This document shows, piece after piece, positions 26,200 through 64,000 of a stretch of DNA of 64,000 bases. A program made the position numbers and the translations under genes. Numbering within the stretch: position 1 is the first letter of the stretch; each line of letters begins with the position of its first letter. Below the pieces are notes generated by a model. That model did not search any database. It was not told where the DNA came from and worked only from the letters and a program-made list of their open reading frames with translations. This DNA is from Thermothielavioides terrestris NRRL 8126 (Eukaryota > Ascomycota > Sordariomycetes > Sordariales > Chaetomiaceae), in the NCBI RefSeq assembly GCF_000226115.1, contig NC_016458.1, positions 5,676,001-5,740,000 of the forward strand, given 5' to 3'.

Positions 26200-27610
26200 A
26201 TGCGCAACCGCGTCCTCCTGCAGGCCCTACTAGGTGCCGCTGCCGTATCCGCCCGCGAAGTGCCCGCCACTATCCGGAGCTTCTACAACTCACTCGGGGC
26301 CGCAGGGAGCTGCTGTAACAAGCTAGCGACGGGCTTCTACGCCTCCGACGATGGCCCGGACAGTATGTGAATCAAACCCAGCGCCCGCACCCGGAAAACC
26401 CCCTCTCCCTCCCGGAGCTAACACGCCCGTCCCAGCCTTCTCCTACTGCGGCGACCACCTGAGCGACTACAACGTGGTCTATATCCAGGGCGTGGGCGGC
26501 GCGCTCGCAGATATGGACGTCGACTGCGACGGGGCGCAGCGCGCGGGCAGCGACGACGGGCGGTGCAACAGCAGCACCGACACGCAGGGCGAGACGGCGT
26601 TCCGGTCGACGGTGGCGGGCTACGGGAGGGGCATCGCCGACCTCGACCCGTTCGTGCACCCGTACGTCGTGTTCGGTAACGAAGGGTCCAAGCCGGGCTG
26701 GAAGACGTTCGATCCGCGCGCGTACGGCGTCGAGCCGTTGTCGGTCGTGGCGGTGGTCTGCGGTGACCAGTTGGTATGCGTCTTTCTCCCCCCTCCTCCT
26801 CCCTCCCCGGGGTTTGTCCGTCCTCTTCAATGGCCTCTTGTCGCTGGATCTTAAAGAGGTCCCGCCAAGACTAATTTCGGCCAATTGTCGGCAATGTTTT
26901 TACAGCGTCAGTACCCCGCCAAGACCGCCAAGGGGTTTGCACTATCGCCACGGGTTAGCCACGGGTTAGTTCGCCGGGGGTGCGGGGGGCGGCGCCAGCC
27001 CCCCGCTAGTTAGGGTAAGGGTTATGGTTAGGGTGAGGGTCAAGGTTAGGGTGCGGGTTAACTTCGTTTTCTTTTTTTTTCAATTTGGTTGAGGTTTTAC
27101 GAAGTTGCTGCTACGAGTCTTTGCAATTCTTCGTTGTTGATGTTGCTCGAAGTCGTGGCGACCCCGCTCCCTCGCGGCAATTTGTAAATACTTGTAAGCG
27201 GCAGGTTCCGAAATTAGTCTTGGCGGGACCTCTTTAAGAATAACCCTCTTGTCGTGTAAGTATGTCTCTAACATGCTACGATCGAAAACGAAAATCAGCT
27301 CTATGCCATCTGGGGCGACACCAACGGGGACGACGGCGCCAAGCCAATGGTAGGCGAGGCATCGATCGCCCTGGCGACGGCGTGCTTCGGTTCGTCCATG
27401 AGCGGCAACAATGGCCACGACGCCACCGACGTGCTGTACCTGGCCTTCGCCGGGTCAGAGGCCGTGCCGGGCGCCGACGGCGCCGCATGGGACGTGGGCT
27501 CGTTTGAGGAGTTCGAGGCGTCCATCGCCGCGCTGGGAGACAGGCTTGTGCAGCGGGTCGGCGGCCGCGCGGTGTCTGTCTCGGCAGCCAGGTCACGGGT
27601 GTCATCATGA
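26200..27610 (+). CDS. Secreted fungal chitosanase (GH75)
   Basis: Three exons, 26200-26362, 26436-26773 and 27299-27610, give 270 residues. A signal peptide (MRNRVLLQALLGAAAVSA) leads into the GH75 fold: IRSFYNSLGAAGSCCNKLAT, FYASDDGPDTFSYCGDH, MDVDCDG, HPYVVFGNEGSKPGW, FDPRAYGVEPLSVVAVVCGD, LYAIWGDTNGDDG, MVGEASIALATACFG, LYLAFAGSEAVPGADG. The enzyme cuts chitosan (deacetylated chitin) outside the cell, for feeding or wall remodelling. Intron 1 is ordinary (73 bases). Intron 2 is 525 bases because it contains a complete 387-base MITE; without it the intron would be about 138 bases. Both splice sites (GTATGC and TCAG) remain intact and the frame is continuous, so the gene is probably still expressed. 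Confidence 0.92.
26851..27237. mobile_element. TTAA-flanked MITE, copy 1 (inside intron)
   Basis: A 387-base element with perfect 30-base inverted ends (26851-26880 and 27208-27237), reading TTAAAGAGGTCCCGCCAAGA at the outer edge. Both copies in the window have TTAA at each end with different bases outside, so a TTAA target duplication as made by piggyBac transposases is the simplest reading; a TA duplication (Tc1/mariner) cannot be excluded because TTAA contains TA. Inside are degenerate telomere-like TTAGGG units (about 27008-27061), a GC palindrome (GGGGGGCGGCGCCAGCCCCC, near 26984) and an AACTTCGT/ACGAAGTT inverted pair. There is no transposase. Confidence 0.88.
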
Positions 27611-28545
27611 TGATCATGGTTGTGATGGTGCTGGTGCTGCTGCGAGGTGACTCTCTCCGCTGAACTGCACTAGTGTATCTGTGCGCCAAAGCGGCGTGCG
27701 TTGGACGTCTAATTGGTTTGTGCTGACGTGCATTGGCAACGTTGCTGAGAAGGCGATGGGTCCGGGGCGTTTTGGCTCCGGGATGGTGCTACAACTCTAC
27801 GTTGGAAATATGTCAGTGAGATGATGAGAGACAATTTGAAGTAGATACTCACAGGCATTTCCTCAAACTGGTGTCGTTGTAATCTCTCTCCTCGCAACAG
27901 ATGCGCTTTGAAAAGTAGGAACGCTGCTACGCGCTGTTCTCCAAAAAGCTCAGAGTGCAGTTGTTCAACTACCTGGGGTTCATGAGGAACGGTGATCCCA
28001 TACACGTTGCACCTGCCCGGGAGGGCGATTCAGACGAGCCACCCCGCGAAGGCGGGTGGGCAGGCAGGAGCCTTGGCTAACGCTAGGCTCGCATGCCCTC
28101 CTGAATGAAGGGGAGGGAAGCGGCTAACATGGGTGGTGGCTGGCACGCCGCCAAAGGTGCCCTACAATTAGAGTCGATGTATGGATTGTACGAGGGGGAG
28201 CTCCTCTTTTTGTCTGTATTCAGCTCGTAACAGCATATCCATTCACATATGCCGCAGTCATCTCACTGCGTGGCCCCACACCGGACGTTAAGCGCGAACA
28301 ACAACAACAACAACAAAGCACAACGCGACAGCAATAGTGAGGTCCATGTCCACAAAGCTAGATTCGCCACTGGGCCATGTATGTACCTAAATCCTCGGGC
28401 AAGGTTATCTTGCTTCCGATCCCCTCCCTTGCCCTCCTTAGATGATGATAGGTCCCGGATTGCGCTCCATCGCTTCCGTTCCCCGGCCTCCGTGGATTTC
28501 CCTAGCCCGACATCCTCCTACTCCAGCATATCCCTTGGGCTATGC
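27611..28545. other. Convergent 3' intergenic region
   Basis: Lies between chitosanase (+) and the small secreted peptide (-). A short AAC repeat occurs at about 28299-28316. No gene supported. Confidence 0.45.
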
Positions 28546-28914
28546 TTACGCGCACCAGCAGACGCCGTGGCAGCTATCCATGAAGTTGTTGTGGAAGCCG
28601 GTGGCGTCGCAGTAGGCACCGGCATTGGCGGCAGTGCACAGGTCGTAGAGGGCGGCCGACTTGCACTGGGGCGAGCCCCAGTTGGCCGCCGTCGAGAGGG
28701 TTCCCGGCTTCTGGCCGCCGTTGGTGGTGTTATCGGTCTCGCTATCGGCCACAGGCGCAGCGAGCGTCTGCGAGAGGAACAGCAGAGCGCCGGTGGCGAG
28801 AACGGCAAAGACCTGGCGCGATAGTTAGCATTCTTCTTCCTGGATCAAAACAAGACCGTGCCGTGGCTAAATAGAAAGAGGAGGAGGAGATGCCATGCTG
28901 AGACATGCCTTCAT
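28546..28914 (-). CDS. Small secreted cysteine-rich peptide, GC-AG intron
   Basis: The proposed model has a 6-base first exon (28914-28909, ATGAAG), a 96-base intron starting GCATGT and ending GCGCCAG after a CTAAC branch point, and a second exon 28812-28546, giving 90 residues. It reads MKVFAVLATGALLFLSQTLA, a textbook signal peptide, then a mature part of about 70 residues. Six cysteines lie near the C-terminus in the pattern C-X8-C-X8-C-X12-C-X3-C-X-C, ending CWCA. No ATG exists in frame in exon 2, so the GC donor is needed unless an unseen exon is used. Such peptides may be effectors, antimicrobials or signals; I do not assign one. Confidence 0.65.
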
Positions 28915-29612
28915 GTTGTCTGGAAGTGGGGAGTTATGCAGATCGCAGTGAGGGGTTGTGCAGATCGATTGAGGTCAGAGCTGTCGATCCTGGAATGGGC
29001 GATCGATGGTCGCTGTTCTTGGCTTTGTTTGGGAAAACTGAATGGGCGATCGATGGTCGTGGTTGTGGATGTGGTTTGTGAAAGTGAATTGGCGATTGGA
29101 GTTGTGTGTGCGATGGTCGCTTGTACTGCGTAGAATTTATAGAATGGAAGCAGGAAGGAGCAGCAGTTGGCAGGTGGCAGTGGTCAGTTGGTCGCTTTCG
29201 CTGCTCGATTCAATGGCCTTAACTGCAGGCACTTTCTCGCACAAAGGAATGCAAGGGGGAAATGGAACCTAGGTTGGCGTCTTCGTCTGATGACGCGCAT
29301 GCAAGTTATTAACGAGCGCGGTGAATGGGAGGGTCGCGACCCAAGCTCACTAGGGGAAACCGGGGAAGGAGCCAGAAATGGGATGAGAAAGGATCGCTCC
29401 TCGGAGGCTCGGGGGCGCAATGCTCAACCAGGGAAAGGGCGTGGGGATTCGGAGCGAGGGGAGGAAAGAACGAGCCCAGTGTCCCGGGACGTGGCTACTG
29501 TGGTACTAACTATGTCGTCCGGCCGATGCAGTGGAATGCAACGTGGAAATATGAGTTCCGTCGGGAATGACGGAGAAGTGTGGGTAACCTGGACACCGGG
29601 AATGGGTAGACG
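28915..29612. other. Promoter-side intergenic region
   Basis: The upstream region of the small secreted peptide gene. It contains several GCGATCGATGGTCG-like repeats between about 28990 and 29060. No gene supported. Confidence 0.45.
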
Positions 29613-29977
29613 TTAAAGAGGTCCCGCCAAGACTAATTTCGGCCAATTGTCGGCAATGTTTTTACAACGTTTTTACACAACCCCGATCGCCAAGGCGTTT
29701 GCTCTATCGCCAAGGGTTAGTTTGCCAAGGGCACGGGGGGCGGCGCCAGCCCCCCGCTGGTTAGGATTCTAGTTAAGGTTAGGGTGCGGGTCAAGGTTAG
29801 GGTGCGGGTTAACTTCGTTTTCTTTTCTTTCGATTTGGTTGAGGTTTTGCGAAGTTGTTGCTACGAGTCTTTGCGATTCTTCGTTGTCGATGTTGCTCGA
29901 AGTCGTCGTGGCCTTGGCGATTTGTAAATACTTGTAAGCGGTAGGTTCCGAAATTAGTCTTGGCGGGACCTCTTTAA
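29613..29977. mobile_element. TTAA-flanked MITE, copy 2
   Basis: A 365-base second copy of the element found in the chitosanase intron. It has the same perfect 30-base inverted ends (29613-29642 and 29948-29977), TTAA at both edges, the same GC palindrome and a reduced set of TTAGGG-like units (about 29777-29811). The two copies differ by small deletions and scattered substitutions in the middle while the ends are identical, as expected when a transposase recognises the ends. It lies in a gene-poor stretch and disturbs no recognisable gene. Confidence 0.88.
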
Positions 29978-32900
29978 CGACGACCCGGGAATGAGGGGCC
30001 GGGGTGAATTGGGGAACTGGGGTTCAAATGCGAGAGTTCCCGGCAATGATCTGCAAAAGGAGCAATAACAACACGCACGATGGAGAAGTTAACTAGTGTA
30101 AAAGGGGAAGCTCCGGACGGCCTTCGCCCAGGAGGCGGTTACACTGTCTGCTCGAGAAGGCCAAGCAGCAGAGGAGGACTTGAACAATCAAGTCGAGATC
30201 CAGAACATGCAATTACGCTTGGGACAATCACGATGCCCCCTACCTACCAAGCTATGTCCCATCCCAAGCTGGCTGCACTTCTGGTTTTAGAACGGCCTCG
30301 GTCTCTCTCCGGCGGGCTGAGCATGACACCTCCGGAAGCAAGAAACCAGAAATCAGCCGTGCAGGGTGTCATACTCCGTTCCCAATTTATCGAGCCCACG
30401 CGAAAAACTGATATGGCAGGCTGTAAGAGTCCAGGATCAGAGCCGGTTCCACCAATGAATTGCGGAACTCCGCAGCGTGGTTTCCTTCTCCGGTAGGCAC
30501 CTGTACACTAGTGAGTGGATAAAATTCATAGACTGCTGCCAGACACATGCCAAGGTACAGTAAGGAACACAGCTGGCCAGAGGAATCTCAAGCGGTTATC
30601 AGCTGCTTGCTGCCGGCATAACGGTTGCGTCGCCCCAACCTATGATGTGCCGGCCCGGAATTTGGACCACACAGGCACCTTCCGCGCGGCCGCCCAATAA
30701 CCGTTTCAAGTATAAAGTGGGAGGCCATTTATCCACATTCCACCCGCGGAACTCTAAACGAGCTCTCGTCCGGACTGCAATGCACACGTTGCTTCCCCGG
30801 CACCTCCCGGAACGTGCTTGGGTTCAAGGTCTTGGCTCTTTTCCTCTGGCATCCACAAGAAAGCCGCCATCCTGCCTCGGTTGCCGCGAAATTGATGGCC
30901 TCGCTGGTCATTCTGGGCTCTTGTTTGCCTCGAGCGAGCCAACGGGAGCACGACACCTTTTCTACCTATTCTTGCATGGAAACCAGGAAGCTAGTCATCC
31001 ATACCACTCGTCAGCCCTGCCCTCCAATTTTGTATATTAATTTAATTAACCTGGTCTCCGGACCTGCACATTTGCTGTCCCTTACAGCGAGCCGTCTCAG
31101 TCGAACTCGGCATTCTGTAGTGCCAACCGCCCTCCTGCTGCCGCTCTATTTATTCAATGCGCAGCATACGTGCAGAACCTCCTCCGACTCACATCAGCGA
31201 GCTTTTCAACTGAGAACGCGATGCTGTGGTCACGCCGCCCTACCAATTATCACCAGCGAGCCTACCGCTAAATGGCTTCCGACACCGTGCATAGGTGCTC
31301 ACCTGCAGCCGGGGGCACAAACGCAGTCATTCGCTTCTGGGTCTTTGTCGACAGCGGGTGCATGCCGCGGCTTCCACCGAGGGTTAATCAACGTTTAGCT
31401 GTACCGAGACGCACCCAGAGCTCATTCTTGCCATGGACCGCATCTCGCCCATACTATACAGCACACTGTTCACTAGGAGGGCATGATAGTGGAACTGGTA
31501 ATCTGGGGCCCAGACACATCCCGACCGCATTCACGATATGAGGGCGATGGATTGGGCGTGAGAACTATGAGCCAACAGCTAGTGAATACCGTCGTAACTC
31601 CACTGTAATGAACAGTCAGATCATCCTAGGTAGCCACGCCTACTGTTAGGTAATTGCGGCCGCCAACACCATGACCTTGCTAATCAACCTCCTACGGTCC
31701 GTCTGCGATGGAAACGGGTTGTCTTCCGACTAGACTTGATGGTCCTGTGTCCGCCGGGACAGAGACTGCCCAACACATGCAGCATCCGTTTTTTCGTGTT
31801 GAGGGTTGTGCGGGCCCTGACATATATTGTTCGAGACGGTGCTTGCGTATTGCACTGGTCCTCGACCCGACGTATACCCTCCAAGAACTCGGATAGCCCG
31901 GCCACTGAAGTTGAGGCATCCAGGTAACTAACTAACAGAGTCCTCCGTGTTTGCTTCATCTCTGGTCTCAAAGCGGAAGATGTCGAGCCGTGATCCATCA
32001 TTGTAAGGTCTAAACTAGTGTCGAGTCCATGTTAAGCCTGAGCCAGGCTGAGCGGTCGAGTCTCTTCATGTCGATCCAGGCCGCCCGCGAAAAGGGAAAC
32101 GCGCCCAATTGAGATCTACTTGCTGCGGGCCCAACACGGTCAACAGCCCAGGTGACCGTGGAGGAAGTCAGATGAGCCCCATGAGAGCGGAGGTAGGCAA
32201 CCCAGGTGACCACGCGAGGAAATCAGATGAGCCTCGTGAGAGCGGAAGCAGCGGCGGTGGATGAATCTGATCTGATGACGACTGAACAAAGAAGAAACGA
32301 ACACGCCAACGCTTGCAACTGGGGCTCAAGCCGGTGCCATCAAGTCACGCCCTCAGTTCACGCTCTCGTGACTCGTCCCCATCATCCGAAGTAGGTTGTT
32401 GGCAATACAACACGAGGCATGAACAACATACCTTCATCGGTATGCATGGCTACACAATTACACGGAAACAACTCCCTAGGTTTGATTCTCGGATGGATGG
32501 GACTCCCGTTAACCCATGGAAAAAGCGAACGCCAGGCCCGCCGCAGCCCCCCAGAAAAGAAGAACCGCCGCGGGCCCCGAGCTGGTAAAGACCGCAAAAA
32601 CTCCGCTGACTCACTCACCCATGCCTCTGACTGCTACACAACACTCATATTCGTCAAGGTGAAGTGCATGTGAGTAGGGTATCAACACACCATGGATCGC
32701 CCCAAGCCTCGGCATATATCTCGGTGTGGGCAAAGCAAACAACAAACCATGCTGTATCACCAAATCCCTTTCCCAATAATTACGTACATACAAACATGGA
32801 TATTCTACCTCACCATCCAGCGGGCACGGCCGTGCTACAACACCGCAGCTGTGCTCCGCTGACCAACCCATTCTAATCGTGATCCGTGGCAATGGCACAG

Positions 32901-59799: not shown

Positions 59800-60850
59800 G
59801 GTCGGTTGTGTTGGGTGCGCCGGAGCGCACTCTCTGCTGTTCGGCGATTCTTTGCTCTGTCGATAATGGAATCCCAGATCCCCAGTTTTCCCGGGCATCT
59901 ACTCGCAAAAGAGCGCTAATAATCTCCTGCGTCCCGAAAGCATCTAGATCCGAAGGCGCGTCGCGGGGGCGAGGAGAGCCAAATCTGTGAGAGAAAGGAG
60001 AACAAAGAATGGATGGCGGCTGCGGTGCGCGCGCGGATAAAGGAACTCGAATCCGTTTGAGGAAAGGAAGGAATGGATAGTTGGTTATTGCGAAAGGAAG
60101 GCAACAGGCGAGATCTCCAGTCTCAGCTAACCATCATCGGAGCGAAACGCTCACGAACACCCGGAGAAGACGGTCTCTGAGTGTCTGCCGTCTCTCTGCA
60201 AGAGCAGGTGAGGGGAGGTGCCGACACGAGAGGGCGGAGGCACCGCAACGACCTGCTGAAGGGGAGTGTTGGCGCTAACGAAGTGCAGAACTCTGTGTCC
60301 CCTGCGCTCTGCAGATTCGGCAAAAACGTGGGCAGGGCAGCAGAGGTGCACAAGCAAACCCAGGGGTCAGGGATCTGCGCGCGAGATGTGCGCGGGCTGT
60401 GTGCCGCTCATCGTTTTCTGCTGGCTGAAGAAGGCAGGCAGCTAACGTTACCTTGAATTAGCTGCTTTCCGACGGATGCTGTGCCGTCGGCGAAGCGGTT
60501 GTTGCCACTCAAACCTAGTTATTTCCGCTTCGTTGGTCCGTTGCCACCATTCGTGTCCCCTGGGGGCCAACAGATAACTACCTTACACTATAAGTATTCT
60601 GGATCAATTCAATCGAACCATGGGCACCTCTGGAGCGGTCATTAACTACGGAGGTTTGATCAACAAACTCTCCGAAAACCCAAATCACCTAACCAATTTG
60701 CAACAATCCACCTACCAACCCCGCCCCCGCCCCAAAATTTTCTCTAGCCGGCACAGAAAACAAATTCCCTCCACCTACTAGCCACCTTGCCCTATTTTCT
60801 TCCTACGCTGCCAAGCCCTCTAGCCGACAGAGCGATTTAGCTGTACGCTT
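59800..60850. other. Promoter region and transition to AT-rich DNA
   Basis: The upstream region of the SH3 protein gene, then from about 60,590 a pyrimidine-rich transition. No gene supported. Confidence 0.5.
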
Positions 60851-61940
60851 CCTAGCCTCAATTGAGTTCAATCGAATTTAATTATAAATGTCTAATATTA
60901 ATTCTCTACTATTAGAAGTTTCTAAGCGTAGGTTACTAATAGTTTTTATAGTTGCTTATTATCTCCCTTTATTGCCTTTGAGTCATTGTCTATTAGAATA
61001 TTTAACCTCGATCAACTATTACTATAGCGTCTTAGCTTAGCGACTTTACGTTTTCTAGTATACTCCTTACCTTAACGTAGATCGAGTGTAAGAACTATAA
61101 AATGGCCTTAAAGCTTATAATATAGATTGTAAATAAGCTATATTAGTCTAAGTAGAACAACGTCTAGGCGCTATTAAAGTAGTATTAGGTAGAGGATCCT
61201 AAATTATTAGCGATTTCGTAGAACTGTTTTCTAATTTATTTCTAGGATATTAAATATCTTTTTATTATTAGAAAATACTTTAAAGACAAAGAAGAAGTCG
61301 AATATAAGTAAGACTTATACTAACCTAAGTATACCTTTATAATAGCGATATTCATTTTTCTTAACTATTATAATCTAATTGTTAATTGCTAGTAATATAG
61401 CAAAGATTAAGGCCTATAACTTATTTATATCTATTATCTACTACTTATCGAGTATAGTAAAAACTTATATATCAACTACTTTTATTCTAGCTATAACCTT
61501 AAATACTTGTTTATCAAAAGTAGGTTTCCTTTATATTTTATAGCTCTAGAGCAATACTAACTAGACAATAGAGACGAAGGAGCTTAAGGAGCAATAAGAG
61601 TATAAGAAGACTAGTAATTCCTAGCTATTTATATTTACTATAGCTATAATAGCGACGTTAGTCTAATATAAGATATAGAAGAAGATTTTAAAAAAGACTA
61701 TTAAAGTATATATAATAAAGGTTATATCGAGCTAAGTAACGATATTAATAAACAATGATAATAAGCTAAAGGACGATATTATAGACAAGGAGCTAGAATC
61801 GATCCTCTAAAGACAGATATATTAGATATAGGGATATAAGCTTAGATTTAAGACAGAGACAATAGATTAAAGTAATAGATATATAATTGTCGAAGGGTCA
61901 TCTTAATACTAATATAATATACTTTAGATATTAACAATAA

Positions 61941-62340
61941 CTATTAATAACCTCTAACAACTATCCCTACCCTCCAATGACTATCGACCCCCTAAGATGA
62001 CTATCTCTACCCTAAGATAAGTATCTCTACCCTATAATAACTATTGACCCCCTACAATAACTGTCCCTACCTTGCAATAACCCTCTCTACTCTATAATAA
62101 CTATTGACCCCCTATAATAACTATCCCTACCCTATAATAACTCTCTCTACCCTATAATAACTGTCGACCCTCTACAATAACTGTCCCTACCCTACGATAA
62201 CCCTCCCTACTCTATGAGAACCCTCCCTACTCTACGATAACTGTCTCTACCCTATAATAACCCTCCCTACCCTACGATAACCCTCCCTACTCTACAAGCA
62301 CCCTCCCTACTCTACGATCACCCTCTTTACTCTACGACGC
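61941..62340. repeat. 20-base minisatellite, grouped in 60-base sets
   Basis: About 20 tandem copies of a 20-base unit, for example CTATCCCTACCCTATAATAA. Between 61981 and 62220 three unit types alternate in order (one with GACCCCCTA, one with TCCCTACC, one with CTCTCTAC), making four 60-base higher-order sets. The units keep far more C than the flanking RIP-like DNA. Confidence 0.9.
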
Positions 62341-62560
62341 CTACCCCTACTACATAGCACTTAGCAACACCCTATAACGCCTACCCCTATCGTATAGTAC
62401 CTAGCGACACCCTACGACACCTACCCCTACTGTATAGCACCTAGCAACACCCTACGACGCCTACCTCTACTATATAGCACCTAGCGATACCCTACGACGC
62501 CTACCTCTACTATATAGCATCTAGCAACACTCTACGACATCTACCTCTACTACGTAATAA
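62341..62560. repeat. 40-base minisatellite continuing the array
   Basis: Directly after the 20-base array come five copies of a 40-base unit (form CTACCCCTACTGTATAGCAC followed by CTAGCAACACCCTACGACGC) and a partial sixth ending near 62560. Units differ mainly by C/T and A/G changes. The first half of each unit recalls the 20-base unit, so this array probably arose as its diverged dimer. Confidence 0.88.
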
Positions 62561-62652
62561 CTGCTAAAAGCCTCTAATAATAGGTATATACCTAGAATAC
62601 CTAGGCAATATATAGGTATACCTATATATACTTAAGAACTTTATAGACTAAA

Positions 62653-62686
62653 TGTAATCGAGGCTAATTATATATAATCGAGTTTA
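62653..62686. repeat. LTR-like end motif, inverted copy at 63948-63979
   Basis: The 32 bases from 62655 (TAATCGAGGCTAATTATATA...) match the reverse complement of 63948-63979 at 23 of 32 positions, and 8 of the 9 differences are transitions, as RIP would cause. The plus copy is preceded by TG and followed about 80 bases on by a CTATATAAG TATA-like box, as in a long terminal repeat. Element type is not determined. Confidence 0.4.
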
Positions 62687-64000
62687 CTAAAGGTAGGACA
62701 AGGCAGAGTTATATTTATCTAATAACATTTTCAACCCTATATAAGTTTAGAATATAAATCCTAAACCCTATATATATTCTTCTTTAGCATTGTAAATATC
62801 TTTTTTATTATACTCTATTTCCTTTGTTTACTAATATATTATACTAATTTAATAAAGCGTCTTTAGATTGACCTTAAGCCCTATAAAGATTTTATCTTTT
62901 AGTAATATCAAGCTAGGCTTACTTATACCTAGATCTTTTTAAATCTTTCCTCTAAATATAGGGTTTAAGTTAGTTCAAGTATATTCTACCTCTCCCTAAA
63001 ATGTTAGAGCGTTGCTACTCGCTAGCAATGTACTAGGGATTCTAACGCCTTCTAAGAAATCATTGAAGATAAGTTCTTTATTGTCGATTCCTCTAATAAC
63101 TAGATCCTCTAACATTGTTAATCCTTTAGTTTTATAGTTTTAAAAGCGGGTTTAGTTAAAATTTATAGAGCACTTAGGATTTTCTAATATTAAACTAAGG
63201 ATCAAATAGCTCTTTAAGAATTGGAGTTCCTTAAGTAGATTGAGCAAAATCCAACTTTAGCTATTTTAATCCCTTAGCTTAGTCGTCGTAGTCTATAGAA
63301 GTTCGTCTAGTAGACTATAAAGCTTAATATTCCAATGTAAAGACTTTATCTCCTTTCTTAGGAACTTTATCCTAAGTATATCTTTAAACGACTATAGAGG
63401 ATGTAGCTACGTTGTAAAGGATTTATATTGCCTAGTCCAAACTATATTTAGAGTGTCGATAGCTATTATAAGTTGGTGGACTTTAGGATTAAGATCTATA
63501 TAGGCATCGACATCTATTTACAGTTTATTCTATAATACTATATTAGGATTTCTATACTTACTAAACGCTCTATTTTCCTTTAATATCTTTAGGTTGTTAA
63601 GGAGCTTAATTTTATTCTAATAATAATTTAGTTAAACTAAGGAGTTGAGACGTTGATAATAGCAGCTACTTATATTTAACTTTCTTTAGATATAAAGGAC
63701 TATCGTCGACTTAAACTAAAGAGGAATAAAGATAAAGGCATTAGATAGTATATACCTAGGGGAAGAGGTAAAGCAGATTTCCCTATTCTTCTAGGAGAGG
63801 TAGATATCTCCTAACTTCCTAAACGACCCTTCTTATTCAAAGATTACTATACCTTTAGAAAGAGCACTAAGAACTAGCGGATTAAGTTATAGTAGAACTA
63901 GCTTTATAAAAGTCGTTTAGGTTTCTAGTAAGTAAGTTACTATAATTTAAACTTAATCGTATATAATTAAGTCCAATTATATTTAGTTATACTAGCTAAT

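Follow-up and report, generated by a model that had tools for sequence, protein, structure and literature searches.

The window analysed here is a stretch of 64,000 nucleotides (C2:5676001-5740000) from the 36.9 Mb genome of Thermothielavioides terrestris, which is assembled in six contigs. It carries, on the forward strand, a gene for a GH75 chitosanase. Exon 1 starts with an ATG at 26200 (26200..26362) and is followed by a 73-nt intron, GTATGT..CAG (26363..26435), and by exon 2 (26436..26773). Intron 2, a GT..AG intron of 525 nt (26774..27298), precedes exon 3 (27299..27610), which includes the stop codon and codes for W172, D174 and E187. Removal of both introns gives an open reading frame for a 270-aa protein with a complete GH75 domain (PF07335, with a score of 244.7 bits where the cut-off is 27, E 7.1e-73 and profile positions 1-165 of 165 covered), in agreement with the original prediction that intron 2 is 525 bases long and that its splice signals and the reading frame are intact. 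The spliced model is identical at 270 of 270 residues to the public T. terrestris protein P0001 (a cluster of three sequences), which may be a computed annotation.

The junction of exons 2 and 3 separates two leucines. The segment around it can be aligned with eight homologues, one of which has one additional residue there. W172, D174 and E187 are invariant across the nine aligned sequences, and an Asp/Glu pair of this kind is used in GH75 catalysis. The chitosanase stops at 270 aa; all eight aligned homologues extend further, into a tail rich in cysteine (most with a C.W.GHC-like motif), and a search of 27300-29700 with the tail of one of them gave only chance matches of 5-6 residues. A PDB sequence search with the chitosanase returned nothing at E <= 0.001. 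Rfam models matched nothing in the window at gathering thresholds and nothing in 26700-27400 at E <= 1, and a tRNA scan of the window with bacterial settings found none.

A whole MITE is present in intron 2, as had been proposed, but with a different extent. In place of a 387-bp element with TTAA edges, the flanks of other copies and the target duplication define a MULE-type element of subfamily A that is 403 bp long (26843..27245, forward strand). It lies between two exact copies of an 8-bp target site duplication, CTCTTGTC, at 26835..26842 and 27246..27253 on the forward strand. The terminal inverted repeats (TIRs) are each 38 bp in length, the left at 26843..26880 on the forward strand and the right at 27208..27245 on the reverse strand. 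Two of their six outer bases match and the inner 32 are perfect (26849-26880 and 27208-27239), so the perfect inverted terminal repeat that had been reported was recovered at 32 nt. The TTAA lies inside the TIR, eight bases from each end of the element. Subtraction of the element and one copy of the duplication leaves a 114-nt GT..AG intron. Within the MITE there is a telomere-like tract of eight degenerate TTAGGG hexamers (27010..27061, forward strand). Exact TTAGGG occurs three times in this copy and twice in the B copy of the window; when the A copy was shuffled 2000 times without further constraint, it occurred 0.2 times on average and three times at most.

Splice signals and folding of intron 2

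The donor of the host intron at 26774, a branch-point-like CTAAC at 27268 and the acceptor CAG ending at 27298 (the latter two at 27268..27298, forward strand) all lie outside the insertion. Removal of the entire 525 nt by the spliceosome would therefore still be expected. The original prediction drew attention to an extra GTAAGT that might alter splicing. The motif exists (27256..27261, forward strand), but it is host intron sequence outside the duplication and was not carried in by the element. As a donor it would define an intron of 43 nt, and the branch-like CTAAC would lie just 12 nt from it.

The element carries splice-like signals of its own. A branch-point-like CTAAT at 26871 is followed by an acceptor-like TTTTTACAG that ends at 26905 (26871..26905, forward strand), and donor-like sites are found at 27184 (GTAAAT) and 27194 (GTAAGC). 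Use of the 26905 acceptor is predicted to remove a 132-nt intron and give a product of 202 aa, and retention of intron 2 a product of 193 aa; both would be without exon 3 and its invariant D174 and E187.

Intron 2 is predicted to form a strong foldback, as had been anticipated. The minimum free energy (MFE) is -199.6 kcal/mol, compared with -171.0 (sd 6.25) for 100 shuffles (z -4.58), none of which was as low; the calculation treats isolated RNA and ignores proteins and co-transcriptional splicing. In the predicted fold 31 of the 32 pairs of the TIR stem have pairing probabilities of 0.98-1.0, the outermost pair being at 0.80. The CTAAT of the element is paired at 1.00 and its acceptor-like site at 0.97-0.98; for the host signals the values are 0.41 (donor) and 0.49 (CTAAC). 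When 20 nt of exon are included on each side, the host acceptor and the donor region are paired with each other in the MFE structure.

These signals raise the possibility that the element changes the output of the gene, the 26905 acceptor being used often or the long intron being kept, with a truncated enzyme and lower expression as the outcome. The donor-like sites at 27184 and 27194 have lower pairing probabilities (0.81 and 0.49), so the element could even become an exon. Plant intronic MITEs, as presented in the available part of a review (PMC12595863), also lie in introns where splicing could change and provide a precedent in the form of MITE-linked alternative splicing; the hosts there are plants, whereas in T. 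terrestris an effect on splicing is only potential. Set against such a change, the branch-point-like and acceptor-like signals of the element are predicted to be paired (0.97-1.00), and the public protein is the normally spliced form, albeit possibly from a computed model. Had the empty 114-nt intron been retained, the product would also have been truncated, at a predicted 191 aa, and the gene was thus already dependent on splicing at this position. We consider an altered gene output unlikely.

Our preferred model is that the element was inserted recently into an intron of about 114 nt by a transposase supplied in trans, with duplication of 8 bp of target. In the pre-mRNA the 32-bp foldback would then join the ends of the element, which may bring the host donor and branch point closer together and bury the CTAAT and the TTTTTACAG acceptor-like site of the element. 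The likely cost would be that a small fraction of transcripts is mis-spliced or keeps the intron and so contains an early stop codon; nothing points to a regulatory benefit. The identity of the spliced model with the public protein, possibly itself a computed annotation, makes it plausible that the gene tolerates the MITE insertion, as had been suggested.

A stronger version of this idea is that the MITE is splicing-neutral through its own TIRs. The 32-bp stem would shorten the effective intron and mask the branch-point-like and acceptor-like sites, leaving an intronic copy nearly invisible to the spliceosome. In the folding model the masking is incomplete, since the donor-like sites of the element are less paired and the host acceptor pairs with the donor region in the MFE structure. 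We regard neutrality of this kind as unlikely and put it forward as speculation. If true, TIR self-masking in RNA would help MITEs to survive in a second way, in addition to their shortness in the face of repeat-induced point mutation (RIP).

The MITE family and its Mutator-like relatives

A genome-wide search for the TIR with up to three mismatches gave 532 forward and 525 reverse matches (1057 in all), and the backward control gave none in either direction. At two TIRs per copy this corresponds to an estimated family size of roughly 500. The window holds four occurrences of the 26-base TIR core, belonging to two element copies, against none in shuffles. The second of these copies, of subfamily B, is 381 bp long (29605..29985, forward strand) and has an 8-bp duplication, CGGGAATG, exact on both sides. 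A similarity search of the genome, in which 40 of 493 candidates were scored, found at least 42 matches that span the full query, with identities of 89-100%. A search of titles and abstract openings, with subscription papers mostly outside its coverage, found no description of this family in T. terrestris, and the accessible portion of PMC12258605 contains nothing on it.

We compared 54 distinct copies, obtained from 57 TIR pairs by removal of three duplicates of overlapping loci. They are not a random sample. The sources were the 30 copies with the highest similarity to the query, copies neighbouring these, the window itself and hand-picked loci on C1, the last chosen partly for a TIR seemingly without a partner; badly mutated TIRs could not enter the set. 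With up to one mismatch allowed, 37 copies have an 8-bp duplication (exact in 30), nine have a 9-bp duplication and eight have neither. When left and right flanks were paired at random, 8-bp duplications appeared in 0.79 of the 54 on average and in five at most. Four of the eight copies without a duplication lie in an apparently RIP-mutated array, one has a right end that is a base short, one is nested, with three C/T changes between its repeats, and the remaining two fall in none of these groups. Natural empty sites are provided by two nested insertions, L032 and L038, in which family members lie inside other members: after subtraction of the element and one 8-bp repeat, the sequences align without interruption across the junction to a copy that has no insertion, with two gaps in 245 positions and one gap in 274. 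With full lengths of 381-413 bp, non-coding sequence, TIRs and an 8- or 9-bp duplication in 46 of the 54 copies, these elements are MITEs. In the 37 8-bp duplications G is at position 8 in 22 and G or C at position 1 in 31; these are raw counts, without a comparison with base composition.

Among 31 aligned A copies, which were taken from the most similar ones and so describe the youngest burst rather than the whole family, nine have no substitution relative to the majority; the copy in the chitosanase intron has three. The spread of the MITE thus appears to have been recent, and the few substitutions together with the exact duplication point to a recent insertion in intron 2.

The left and right ends of the elements tend to vary in concert between subfamilies (L001-L038 and L048), both being TCTTAA, CGTTAA, GGTTAT or GGCTAA; the GGTTAT and GGCTAA types are represented by one copy each. 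There are counter-examples in L038, whose outer element has CTAA at its left end but TTAA at its right, and in a long element, the second described below (CCTTAA versus TCTTAA). Relatives of about 392 bp are found at L037:1186-1578, L039:891-1282 and L041:208-599, and one of their ends is shared with a long element for 42 bp. Between L039 and L041 the copies do not differ (100% identity).

Two long elements on C1 have the same TIR. The first is 6026 bp in length and lies between two copies of GTCCAAGA, the second is 5964 bp and lies between two copies of CAAACTGG; these are their own 8-bp duplications. The two are colinear, at about 84% over the first 5.4 kb. The terminal 28-36 bp are common to the MITEs and to both long elements, positions 1-36 of subfamily A matching one end of the second at 94% and positions 346-381 of subfamily B one end of the first at 100%. 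The ends alone are shared. Comparison of the MITE interior with the interiors of the two long elements gave no match and so lends no support to an origin by internal deletion from them.

The MULE transposase model PF10551 identifies 17 loci in the genome, each with at least four stop codons in the matched domain. The interiors of the long elements align at 82-90% over about 2.5-2.9 kb with nine of these loci, which look wrecked by RIP and of which four exceed the family cut-off, and over 1.1 kb with a tenth; the other seven do not align with them. The domain was detected in loci aligned to the two long elements and not in the elements themselves. No TIR was found when the 17 MULE loci were searched to about 1.5 kb from the domain in either direction. 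The equivalent place in the long elements is more than 1.5 kb from either end, so the TIR-less loci carry little weight either way.

MULEs are recognized by target duplications of 8-10 bp, and typically have long TIRs of more than 100 bp, according to the available text of PMC5225508. The duplications found here, of 8 bp in 37/54 and of 9 bp in 9/54, fall within that range. The TIRs are shared with transposase-domain elements indirectly, through the 6-kb elements that align with PF10551 loci. A TIR of 38 bp is a departure from a feature that is typical of MULEs, not exclusive to them. On the basis of the duplication length, the shared ends and the MULE domain in relatives of the long elements, we assign the element in the chitosanase intron to the Mutator-like MITEs. 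It is very probable, in our view, that a non-autonomous MULE MITE of 403 bp, using a transposase in trans, was inserted recently into an existing intron of about 114 nt in the GH75 chitosanase gene and duplicated 8 bp of target.

The family can be compared with Muta1 of Aedes aegypti, a member of the MULE superfamily, as described in the accessible sections of PMC5225508. Both combine 8-bp and 9-bp duplications, and both have many short derivatives with the ends of a few long elements. Muta1 differs in having TIRs of 145 bp with subterminal repeats, against 38 bp in the T. terrestris MITE, and in an excess of 9-bp over 8-bp duplications (39 to 21), where in T. terrestris the 8-bp class prevails by 37 to 9. 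Muta1 is mobile in yeast, whereas all 17 MULE domains found in T. terrestris, a fungal host, carry stop codons.

We next weigh a hAT-type MITE. Elements of the hAT class make 8-bp duplications too, and it is this length that prevails among the 54 copies. The genome has five broken hAT dimerisation domains (L051-L055), each with at least one in-frame stop. A hAT origin is nevertheless very improbable, in that 9-bp duplications occur as well and it is with MULE loci that the long elements between these TIRs align. A RIP-tolerant search also found no TIR in the five hAT loci (about 3.2 kb each, about 1.5 kb per side), a weak argument given that the MULE loci are likewise without one.

The position of the copies relative to coding sequence was assessed with a codon score trained on nine long open reading frames of the window, which are not proven genes; the score can miss short exons. 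It was applied to the 44 of 54 copies that have 250 bp or more of flanking sequence to the left and to the right, the other ten having too little. The chitosanase copy is the sole one of the 44 with a strong same-strand coding signal on both sides (41.8 and 37.2). As background, 99% of 400 random 400-mers scored below 10.7, and eight other copies exceed 10.7 on one side only. By this measure the sampled copies lie mainly outside coding sequence, and one intron in 44 is unremarkable as a rate.

That the element itself made the intron, as an introner, is scarcely credible. The intron is indeed mostly repeat with inverted ends, and introners with inverted and direct repeats are known, for example from Amoebophrya, where the hairpin is thought to join the exon borders (PMC7789003, available part). 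In T. terrestris, however, the splice sites belong to the host: the donor, branch-point-like site and acceptor are all outside the element and its duplication, the element supplies no splice site of intron 2, and a 114-nt GT..AG host intron remains without it. A coding signal on both sides was seen for none of the other 43 scored copies.

A piggyBac-like MITE of 387 bp has a TTAA target duplication at the edge of the element and a TTAA does adjoin the perfect arms on both sides, but the comparison of flanks and the nested insertions rule this class out, for in other copies a further eight bases are conserved outside the TTAA (left and right respectively, GCTGGATCTTAA and TTAAGAATAACC for subfamily A and GGTRGACGTTAA and TTAACGACGACC for subfamily B) before similarity ends and the 8- or 9-bp duplications follow, and the TTAA itself is replaced by CTAA in one copy and by TTAT in another. 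The corrected ends matter, as the TTAA reading would send annotators to the wrong transposon superfamily.

The Mutator-like MITE in intron 2 is a real and well-preserved insertion, ordinary in kind. It is a clean example of a transposon that entered an intron of a fungal enzyme gene and is flanked by an exact duplication of its target.

Base composition, RIP and element size

The two long elements have GC contents of 0.365 and 0.393, TpA/ApT ratios of 1.92 and 2.10 and substrate indices of 0.36 and 0.52; for reference, bases 1-60000 of the window give 0.59 for TpA/ApT and 1.22 for the substrate index. The base pattern of the long elements is that of RIP, which we infer to have acted on them. 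Solitary copies differ in composition. The GC content is 0.537 for the 31 A copies and 0.47-0.54 for 16 of the 17 B copies outside the array on C1, the remaining one, a nested copy, being at 0.45; it is 0.31-0.39 for the four copies within the array. The TpA/ApT ratio overlaps between the groups (1.20-1.86 for copies outside the array, 1.71-1.82 for those in it), whereas the substrate index separates them (0.50-0.85 outside, 0.38-0.45 within). These contrasts are drawn from copies chosen by intact TIRs or by similarity, so RIP-wrecked solitary copies are under-counted.

On C1, about 2.4 kb of sequence between two TIRs was considered as an autonomous element and rejected, as it is really an array of apparently RIP-mutated MITEs with no open reading frame of at least 60 aa inside. 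The array of family members at L031:1061-3460 has a GC content of 0.35 and strong RIP indices, unlike the solitary copies sampled.

Among the A copies 107 of 129 differences are C-to-T or G-to-A, 46 in a CpA/TpG context and 44 in a CpG context. With the two contexts nearly equal, loss of methylated cytosine is as likely an explanation as light RIP. In Neurospora RIP requires repeats of roughly 400 bp, and of 1 kb where the copies are unlinked, as given in the available parts of PMC5555474 and PMC2780460. The escape of MITEs from RIP by shortness has already been proposed for Zymoseptoria (PMC9970103, in the portion available), and the contrast between size and RIP seen here is a new example and no new principle. 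The MITEs of Zymoseptoria tritici described there are also short, less affected by RIP and present in near-identical bursts; they are another family in another fungus, and for T. terrestris RIP is deduced from sequence among copies chosen by their ends or by similarity. What T. terrestris offers is a natural contrast within one family, between 6-kb elements and a MITE array that look destroyed by RIP and the solitary copies of about 400 bp that were sampled. At the end of the window, 60001-64000 is AT-rich, with a GC content of 0.39 and then 0.34, a TpA/ApT ratio of 1.53 and a substrate index of 0.57, and resembles RIP-wrecked repeats.
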